A DNA stretch of 33,961 nt from a virus. The stretch covers positions 1-33,961 of the IMG/VR virus record IMGVR_UViG_3300049855_000221; one strand, 5' to 3'. Below, in pieces: positions 25,683-30,988 of this stretch (within the stretch, counting starts at the first letter, position 1; every line of letters starts with the position of its first letter). A program made the position numbers and the translations under genes. Under the pieces are notes generated by a model. It made no database searches. It had not been told where the DNA came from and was given only the letters and a program-made list of their open reading frames with translations.

Positions 25683-25736
25683 TTATCTACTTGACATATA
25701 TTATAGGTAGTGTTATACTGTAACCGTAGTAGATAA
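25683..25736. promoter_or_regulatory. Inverted repeat bracketing the early promoter
   Basis: TTATCTACT at 25683-25691 and its exact reverse complement AGTAGATAA at 25728-25736 sit on either side of the rightward promoter. The left arm touches the -35 box and the right arm covers the transcription start. This is a plausible operator pair for a repressor. Confidence 0.5.
25691..25719 (+). promoter_or_regulatory. Rightward sigma70-type promoter for the early operon
   Basis: TTGACA (25691-25696), 17-base spacer, TATACT (25714-25719), an almost ideal promoter. It should start near 25726 and drive the plus-strand genes from 25777 onward. Confidence 0.8.
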
Positions 25737-26275: not shown

Positions 26276-26914
26276 ATGAAATTAGAAAAAATTGAAATTA
26301 AACTGGAATTAATTGAACCTATCTTGGGTTCGTGTCCTAAAAATAAAGACGTTTATGAGTCATACATCGTTGAAAAAATGCGTAAAGACGTTGATAATGA
26401 AAAACTCGATGTTAAAGAACTTAAAAAAAGAGGAGTCGAAGAACTAGAAACAATTCAGGAAACAGAAGAAAAAGGATGGACGGGGTTCCATTGTGACTCC
26501 GAAGGCATATTCATCTATGACTATGTAATAAGAGGTATGCTTAAAAATGCCGGTAAAGCCCTTAAATATGAAACTGAAATAAAAAATTCAGCTTCAAAAA
26601 TTGACCAGTATGTGTTTGTTTTCCCCAGAGTAATACATTTTAAAAATTCCGGAAAGTTTGTTAAAGAGCCTCACGGCACATTAGAACGTCCATTGAGAGC
26701 TATGACTATGCAAGGCCCGCGAGTGACTCTTGCTAAGTCTGATATGCTCAATTCCGGAGTAACTTTGGAATTTAATATCAAACTAGTTCCAAATCCTGAT
26801 ATAACAGTTAAGAAAATTCAGGAATTGTTTGAATATGGTGAATTGTGCGGTTTAGGTCAGTTCCGCAATGGAAGCTATGGCCGCTTTGTCGTAAAGGAGT
26901 TCAATAAAGTATAG
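26276..26914 (+). CDS. RAMP-like (Cas7/Csm3-type fold) phage protein
   Basis: 212 residues from ATG 26276, preceded by AAGGAG; a TTG at 26267 is too close to that site. The N-terminus (IEIKLELIEPILGS) is a first beta strand. GIFIYDYVIRGMLKNAG resembles the G-x-[SL]-x-[KR]-G-x-[LF]-[RK] element that RAMP proteins use near their RNA-binding helix. The C-terminus CGLGQFRNGSYGRF closely matches the RAMP glycine loop (G-x-G-x-x-R-S-x-G-Y-G-R-[FV]). Proteins of this superfamily bind single-stranded RNA, several as filaments. No Cas neighbours are present. Immediately after its stop begins a G-anchored 5-base periodic array. Confidence 0.55.
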   Translation: MKLEKIEIKLELIEPILGSCPKNKDVYESYIVEKMRKDVDNEKLDVKELKKRGVEELETIQETEEKGWTGFHCDSEGIFIYDYVIRGMLKNAGKALKYETEIKNSASKIDQYVFVFPRVIHFKNSGKFVKEPHGTLERPLRAMTMQGPRVTLAKSDMLNSGVTLEFNIKLVPNPDITVKKIQELFEYGELCGLGQFRNGSYGRFVVKEFNKV

Positions 26915-27073
26915 GCACTGTGTTGTTTGGTGGTGCGCGGCAACGGTACGGTTGTGTCACGCAAAGTCGAGTTGGGAAATGTGAAGTAACGTAAAGTTCC
27001 GGCTCTGCTACGTCCGGTAAAGAAAAGTTAAGTATTTGTGAAGTGGAGATTTGTATCGTAGAGTGACGGTATA
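26915..27073 (+). repeat. Degenerate pentanucleotide array (GTNNN-type) filling the intergenic gap
   Basis: From the base after the RAMP-like gene's stop, a G stands every 5 bases: 26915, 26920, 26925, 26930, 26935, 26940, then 26946 to 27001, 27007 to 27032, and 27038 to 27068. I count 31 G-anchored units, 21 of them GT, 5 GC, 3 GA and 2 GG. Only three one-base slips occur, after 26940, 27001 and 27032. It ends just before the ribosome site of the next gene. There is no ORF and no spacer/repeat structure like a CRISPR. Confidence 0.85.
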
Positions 27074-29688: not shown

Positions 29689-30988
29689 AAATTTAACCGA
29701 CGCACAAAAAGCGCGTTTCGATGAGTTTATAGATAAATGGATGGCTATTGGCTTATCTACTAAAAAAGCAGATCGCGTTATGGCGGAAAATGGAATAGAA
29801 GAGGCATATAAAATCGCTGGTCTTAAAAAACCTAAAGTAGTTTGGACATTATCACCGCTTTCTTCTGGAATTACTAGGTATACTGTCTTTGAAATTATCA
29901 AACACGATGTTCCTTCGGTGAGAGATTCGGTGTGGGCTTCAGTGGGGGCTTCAGTGGGGGATTCGGTGAGAGCTTCAGTGGGGGATTCGGTGTGGGATTC
30001 GATATGGTCCTCGGTGAGGGATTCGGTGTGGGCTTCAGTGGGGGCCTCGGTGAGGGATTCAGTGGGGTATTCGGTGAGGGATTCGGTGGAGGCTTCGGTG
30101 AGGGATTCGGTGGAGGCTTCGGTGAGGGATTCGATATGGTCCTCGGTGAGGGATTCGGTGTGGGCTTCAGTGGGGGCCTCGGTGAGGGATTCGGTGTGGT
30201 CTTCGGTGAGGGATTCGGTGGAGGCTTCAGTGGGGGCCTCGGTGAGGGATTCAGTGGGGTCTTCGGTGAGGGATTCGGTGAGGGATTCGATATGGGATTC
30301 GGTGAGGTCTTCGGTGTGGGCTTCAGTGGGGGCCTCGGTGAGGGATTCGGTGTGGTCTTCGGTGAGGGATTCGATATGGGATTCGGCTTATGGGTCGCAC
30401 GATTCGCATTGGCTTGGGTTTTACGATTATTTAAATGATGTTGTTAAACTAGAAGCGCATACGGAAAAATTAAAAGGACTGTGGATGATAGCGCAATCCG
30501 CAAACTGGTTCCTACCACATGAGAATATTTGCTGGATTTCTGAAAGACATAATATCTGTAAGTTAAAAGAAGGAAGAATTCACGCAGACGGTGGCCCAGC
30601 GATTCAGTATCCTGACGGGTTTTCAATTTGGGCTTTAAATGGTGTTCGAGTCCCGCAATCAATAGCCGAAACGCCAGCGGAAAAGATAGATGCCAATATC
30701 ATTCTAAAAGAGCAGAACGCAGAAGTTAGGAGAGAGATTGTCCGTAAGATTGGTATTGAGCGAGTCTGTAAAAAACTTAATGCTAAATGTATTGATAAAA
30801 GCAACGATGGTGTTTATGAATTGCTAATTCTTGATTTGGGAGATGGGCGAAAACGTCCTTATTTAAAAATGTTAAACCCAAGTATAAGGTGCTATCATAT
30901 TGAGGGTGTTTCACCCGGAATAACTACTATAGATGGGGCGCTCATATGGCGAAATGGCACAAAAGAAAAACCGGCAATTTTAACTTAG
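29675..30988 (+). CDS. DUF6745-like protein with a long Ser-Val tetrapeptide repeat
   Basis: 437 residues. Residues 1-80 form a helical start (DAQKARFDEFIDKWMAIGLS). About residues 80-238 are a repeat of x-S-V-x units (RDSV, WASV, GASV, EASV, WDSI). The rest is a conserved globular domain (ANWFLPHENICWISERHNIC, GRIHADGGPAIQYPDGFSIW, ending ALIWRNGTKEKPAILT) resembling DUF6745. Function is unknown in the family. The C-terminal 16 codons are copied at the end of the next HNH gene, which starts inside this one. Confidence 0.65.
   Translation: MSRIENLTDAQKARFDEFIDKWMAIGLSTKKADRVMAENGIEEAYKIAGLKKPKVVWTLSPLSSGITRYTVFEIIKHDVPSVRDSVWASVGASVGDSVRASVGDSVWDSIWSSVRDSVWASVGASVRDSVGYSVRDSVEASVRDSVEASVRDSIWSSVRDSVWASVGASVRDSVWSSVRDSVEASVGASVRDSVGSSVRDSVRDSIWDSVRSSVWASVGASVRDSVWSSVRDSIWDSAYGSHDSHWLGFYDYLNDVVKLEAHTEKLKGLWMIAQSANWFLPHENICWISERHNICKLKEGRIHADGGPAIQYPDGFSIWALNGVRVPQSIAETPAEKIDANIILKEQNAEVRREIVRKIGIERVCKKLNAKCIDKSNDGVYELLILDLGDGRKRPYLKMLNPSIRCYHIEGVSPGITTIDGALIWRNGTKEKPAILT
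29913..30389 (+). repeat. 12-base tandem repeat coding for Ser-Val tetrads
   Basis: Nearly 40 units of a variable 12-mer resembling GGTGAGGGATTC, C-poor and G-rich on the plus strand. In the gene frame it reads x-S-V-x. A second plus-strand frame is also free of stops for 168 codons and would read Gly/Phe-rich repeats, a by-product of the 12-base period. Likely unstable in length. Confidence 0.9.
30938..30988 (+). repeat. Gene-end repeat, copy 1
   Basis: Codes for ALIWRNGTKEKPAILT and stop at the true end of the DUF6745-like gene. Twelve of 16 residues match copy 2 at 31573-31623, in the same frame position relative to a stop. Confidence 0.8.

Follow-up and report, generated by a model that had tools for sequence, protein, structure and literature searches.

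What does a phage gain from a gene for a RAMP-like protein that runs straight into a long array of G-anchored pentanucleotides? This question is raised by positions 26276-27068 of the window, that is, the whole 33,961-nt stretch analysed here, which is an IMG/VR virus record. A preliminary description of the locus had noted a G at every fifth base from the stop codon onwards, mostly as GT, and had counted 31 units with three slips. The array was indeed found to start at the first base after the stop of the 26276-26914 ORF and to occupy 26915-27068 on the + strand, with 31 G anchors and none missing. The count is better given as 30 complete units (GYNNN or GANNN) followed by a final anchor, the second letters of the complete units reading GT in 21, GC in six and GA in three. 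The three slips stand as three 6-nt units, GCAACG at 26940-26945, GTTCCG at 26996-27001 and GTATTT at 27032-27037.

The claim that such spacing would not be kept by random sequence was put to a shuffle test, which it passed. When the whole window was scored with a 5-phase HMM, the array reached 69.1 bits, against a best score of 17.5 in 20 dinucleotide shuffles of the window, 17.4 bits for the runner-up site on the + strand and 14.1 bits for the best site on the minus strand, which ruled out chance periodicity. Scored alone, the array gave 46.7, against a mean of 8.0 (sd 2.1, maximum 19.2) in 1000 shuffles. It is the single array of its kind in the window and lies on the strand of the gene. 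Tandem Repeats Finder did not list it: the array is a lattice in which only the G is fixed and the other letters vary, not a copied repeat, and a microsatellite was ruled out in the same way; a known RNA family was also set aside, as Rfam held no relevant match. No intrinsic terminator was found between the gene and the array. The best promoter-like site upstream on the + strand, TTGACA-17-TATACT at 25691-25719, is a candidate promoter of the + strand operon by sequence match, such matches as a set being not above shuffle expectation. Elsewhere in the window, the coding region at 29913-30373 contains a 24/36-nt repeat that gives rise to protein repeats like SVRDSVWASVGASV.

The ORF (+ strand) encodes 212 amino acids and ends in CGLGQFRNGSYGRFVVKEFNKV, and its product had been likened to RAMP/Cas7 proteins. 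Structure prediction confirmed the resemblance. An AF2 model (pLDDT 84, pTM 0.80) was matched by Foldseek to the type VII Cas7 8yhe_F (E 4e-7) as well as to Csm3 proteins, VIA gave structural matches to Csm3/Cas7 with Z about 13 (13.2 for one), and every one of the top PDB structures was a Csm3/Cas7. As modelled, the 212-residue protein is thus of the Cas7/Csm3 RAMP fold, as found in type III and type VII CRISPR-Cas, and like these proteins it would form oligomers evenly spaced along a guide RNA. The spacing of Csm3/Cas7 on RNA is 6 nt, against 5 nt here. The most conserved stretch is the invariant RPLRA.T.QGPR loop, together with the C-terminal G-loop GLGQFRNGSYGRF. None of the RAMP proteins tested reached the cut-off of a Pfam, NCBIfam or PADLOC family; with regard to Class 1 CRISPR-Cas, the PADLOC scan of the RAMP protein alone was without a match, no copied repeat was found at the array, and neither a further cas gene nor a CRISPR repeat-spacer array was noted in the window.

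Profile comparison pointed to a closer relative. The window protein matched PHROG 4652, a family to which the library assigns no function, at E 2e-4; members of this family, which match at E values down to 1e-26, carry the same arrays. An hhalign comparison of the window clade with the PHROG 4652/SUSP1 branch gave 98.3% (E 2e-14). Among PDB sequences, the window-clade profile ranked 36pp, the 'SUSP1 Vipr protein' (E 0.0075), above Cas7 (E 0.052), and the product of one of our homologue loci (L347) is identical to the 36pp protein. By profile comparison, the window protein is therefore placed in the Vipr lineage.

The VIPR system was described in a 2026 preprint (PMC13142463, doi 10.64898/2026.04.26.720920). 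According to that source, Vipr proteins coat vrRNAs built of GGY/NN pentads, read double-stranded DNA by non-contiguous pairs, skipping one base for every two that pair, and act as repressors of competing phages or satellites (PMC13142463). For SUSP1, it reports the RNP, DNA binding, the 1-nt skip code and repression, and gives sequenced vrRNAs; vrRNA expression and Vipr binding are reported for SUSP1 and for a P. fulva prophage (PMC13142463). It distinguishes seven types and speaks of a 'related consensus' and of 'staggered arrays with overlapping vrRNAs' (PMC13142463); the window clade may already be included there.

The window locus resembles SUSP1 VIPR (PDB 36pp) in having a stand-alone phage RAMP protein of about 200 amino acids, homologous by profile, flanked by a G-anchored pentad RNA with hypervariable positions between fixed anchors; its location in a virus record also agrees with the phage or provirus setting of VIPR. 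In contrast to the GGY of SUSP1, however, the anchor of the window clade is G followed by Y or A, and the array accords with the 'related consensus' (G in 95%, then Y/A and a variable rest) and not with strict GGY/NN. The window clade also differs in having up to 315 uninterrupted units and a superunit element, GCRANG, and in the window neither a vap gene nor a 3' pseudoknot tail was recognised. The vap gene is typical of VIPR, not universal; no named family lies beside the window gene, and a partner profile matched just two window-clade loci. By eye, the genes next to vipr in other loci fall into two small protein families, winged-helix-like or with an HN.FEW motif, which are perhaps vap and neither of which is named by Pfam (L340:4591-5031, L344:3563-4021 and L342:3582-4148; also L259, L261, L290 and L346).

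The preliminary description had tied array and protein together, and this link could be assessed in homologues collected from viral contigs, genomes and MAGs. Of about 180 homologue loci, nearly all had an array next to the gene. In 88 non-redundant loci, an HMM with a learned second letter yielded 9931 units, of which 80.5% were 5 nt and 18% were 6 nt long (mean 5.18 nt). In these loci the anchor was G in 95% and the next letter C, T or A, almost never G; the arrays comprised 23-315 units and either followed the gene directly or ended just before it, always on the same strand. Most loci of a second set of 80 behaved in the same way. The link also held in the converse direction, when viral contigs were searched for a ten-anchor GT pattern irrespective of genes and lattices of at least 55 bits that were not tandem repeats were kept. 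Among the matches listed, 31 of 35 such lattices had a RAMP homologue within 2.5 kb on either strand, 18 of the 31 on the strand of the GT reading, while none of the eight tandem repeats listed had one nearby; some of the lattices are G-anchored on the strand of the RAMP gene only once reverse complemented. In Hydrogenobaculum phage 1, the array adjoins a homologue of the window protein.

Two further properties of the arrays were considered and not relied upon. Variable letters diverged by 7%, against 22% at fourfold sites, but this sign of purifying selection is only suggestive because the flanks in that phage group are mosaic. Folding was mixed, with a mean z of -1.3 in 43 arrays and positive values in the window and SUSP2. 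A ParB-like gene, recognised by eye, adjoins the array in two loci (L262 and L231), and ParB_N is also found among window-clade neighbours.

The blind scan also led to the divergent PHROG 4652 branch, which occurs in Felix O1-type coliphages and in Gordonia, Mycobacterium and Pseudomonas phages. The Felix-type protein shares the fold of the window protein. Its arrays are short, and between them lie a 5' stem-loop and a 3' element which can be read as a pseudoknot. In eight Felix-type genomes, 30 of 31 arrays (29 of them distinct) had a length of 3 mod 5, and length therefore changes in steps of 5. SUSP1 and SUSP2 have a 100% identical gene and no shared arrays. Likewise, the Felix O1-type loci L339, L340 and L347-L353 have vipr genes that are 94-100% identical and arrays that nearly all differ, a few being common as wholes. 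In most of the 230 phage records that match the cassette region of this group, the region has no annotation or is called a repeat_region. In Salmonella phage Mushroom, a group I intron match below threshold adjoins the DNA polymerase gene (L339:1-224).

In Mycobacterium phage LittleE (L342:2676-4510), Gordonia phage Trine (L341:3571-3848) and a third locus (L354:2566-3499), the arrays are separated by tRNA-like minihelices consisting of an acceptor stem and a T-arm without D or anticodon arm; in LittleE, a small hairpin lies ahead of them. Such separators suggest cutting by tRNA-processing enzymes, by which the guide RNAs would be freed. The main text of the preprint mentions hammerhead ribozymes, and tRNA-like separators are not mentioned there (PMC13142463).

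Taken with the Vipr-branch homology, these observations make it likely, in our judgement, that the window locus is a VIPR-type RNA-guided system, in which a Vipr protein gene is followed 3' by a vrRNA array, and the array very probably makes the guide RNA of the adjoining protein. Vipr protomers would be arranged along this RNA so that each takes up a 5-nt unit and grips its fixed G(Y), and the remaining letters of each unit would form a gapped code for non-contiguous pairing with double-stranded DNA; the complex, once on the DNA of a competing phage or prophage, would block transcription. Phages appear to use VIPR to switch off the genes of their competitors. For the window itself, production of the RNA, the assignment of the code letters, DNA targeting and the target would follow this scheme by analogy. 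Counted against the VIPR reading are that the whole system of the window rests on one array with no sign of processing, that neither a vap gene nor a 3' tail was recognised there, that the target searches described below found nothing, and that the clade lacks the GGY consensus, phase 4 being G in just 26%.

Searches for targets bear on the code. Searches for self-targets with masks in a 5-nt register gave no excess over reversed or complemented controls; the 5-nt register is the wrong rule for SUSP1, because its register in the target is 3 nt (PMC13142463). Under skip rules of 0-3 nt, matches were not in excess in either 2.7 Mb of phage DNA or 0.8 Mb from one host, and one exact 1-nt-skip pattern found no target in IMG/VR; the target space covered was small. 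Large counts obtained for skip rules with a 5-nt target period were residual array copies and not targets. That targets are in excess under no skip rule would suit a RAMP-guided system that differs in its code or substrate, in which three letters of each GYNNN unit are displayed and may pair with RNA or, by another skip rule, with DNA. In the window clade each of phases 2-4 varies, and the closest folds include the RNA-targeting Cas7 proteins of types III and VII. However, the protein superfamily and the 5-nt lattice are shared with SUSP1 VIPR, which targets DNA by a 1-nt skip, and we consider this alternative unlikely.

TRAP, the trp RNA-binding attenuation protein, binds RNA triplets of the form (G/U)AG at about 5-nt spacing, and the window protein could be imagined to coat its own 3' UTR in the same manner and so control its transcript or serve as a scaffold. 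An array within the same transcript unit, with no terminator between, and strict conservation of the anchor alone would be in keeping with such autoregulation. TRAP itself has an unrelated fold, 11 sites only and an autoregulatory role. In related branches of the present family, however, the arrays are divided among a number of distinct cassettes that have stem-loops, pseudoknots or tRNA-like separators, and their contents turn over as whole cassettes, which would be needless for a binding scaffold; autoregulation is accordingly improbable. A DNA-level element bound by the protein, such as an origin, partition or recombination site, seems more improbable still. The mean unit of 5.18 nt is close to half a DNA helical turn, and replication and recombination genes are neighbours, but the array keeps strictly to the strand of the gene in the window clade, RNA structures flank the arrays of relatives, and vrRNAs have been sequenced for SUSP1 (PMC13142463). 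Of the roles proposed in the preliminary description, that of an RNA guide is in essence the one shown for the homologous VIPR (PMC13142463; PDB 36pp), while regulation of its own transcript and a decoy function are less likely and gain no support, since the arrays of relatives sit in separate structured or tRNA-like cassettes that resemble discrete small RNAs.

The window locus is best read as a member of the system made known in 2026, and its clade is marked by a less strict anchor and by superunits. The superunits correct the earlier statement that no CRISPR-like repeat is present, as GCRANG recurs every 21-36 nt across the clade. The 6-nt units of the clade are nonrandom, usually with four or five 5-nt units between them, whereas simulated random slips gave a falling distribution of spacings. 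The consensus superunit opens with GCRANG-GYAWN and continues with three to five GNNNN units, for lengths of 21, 26, 31 or 36 nt. In the window array itself the pattern is weak, with the unit GCAACG matching the element. Among six related phages (L170, L174, L176, L177, L179 and L184), superunits are present or absent as wholes with their order conserved; several are identical, and some are common to all six. Tentatively, the window clade could be a distinct VIPR type with its own code, in which each 5 nt contain one fixed G(Y) and display two or three letters, and in which overlapping guides are cut from long arrays at GCRANG every 21-36 nt, the guides being gained and lost as whole superunits in the manner of CRISPR spacers.

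VIPR is a barely described RNA-guided system and a proposed forerunner of CRISPR, and it was found to be common in uncultured phages of several bacterial phyla. Since the RNA of the window clade obeys looser rules than the characterised one, variants of the code become testable. The turnover of arrays by whole units is a natural record of changing targets and, if the guides hit competing phages, the arrays would be a readable log of phage-phage conflict. The isolate genome of Porcincola intestinalis contains three different loci of the system (L209, L210 and L116), near the starts of contigs C1, C5 and C6, and would make a convenient test host.
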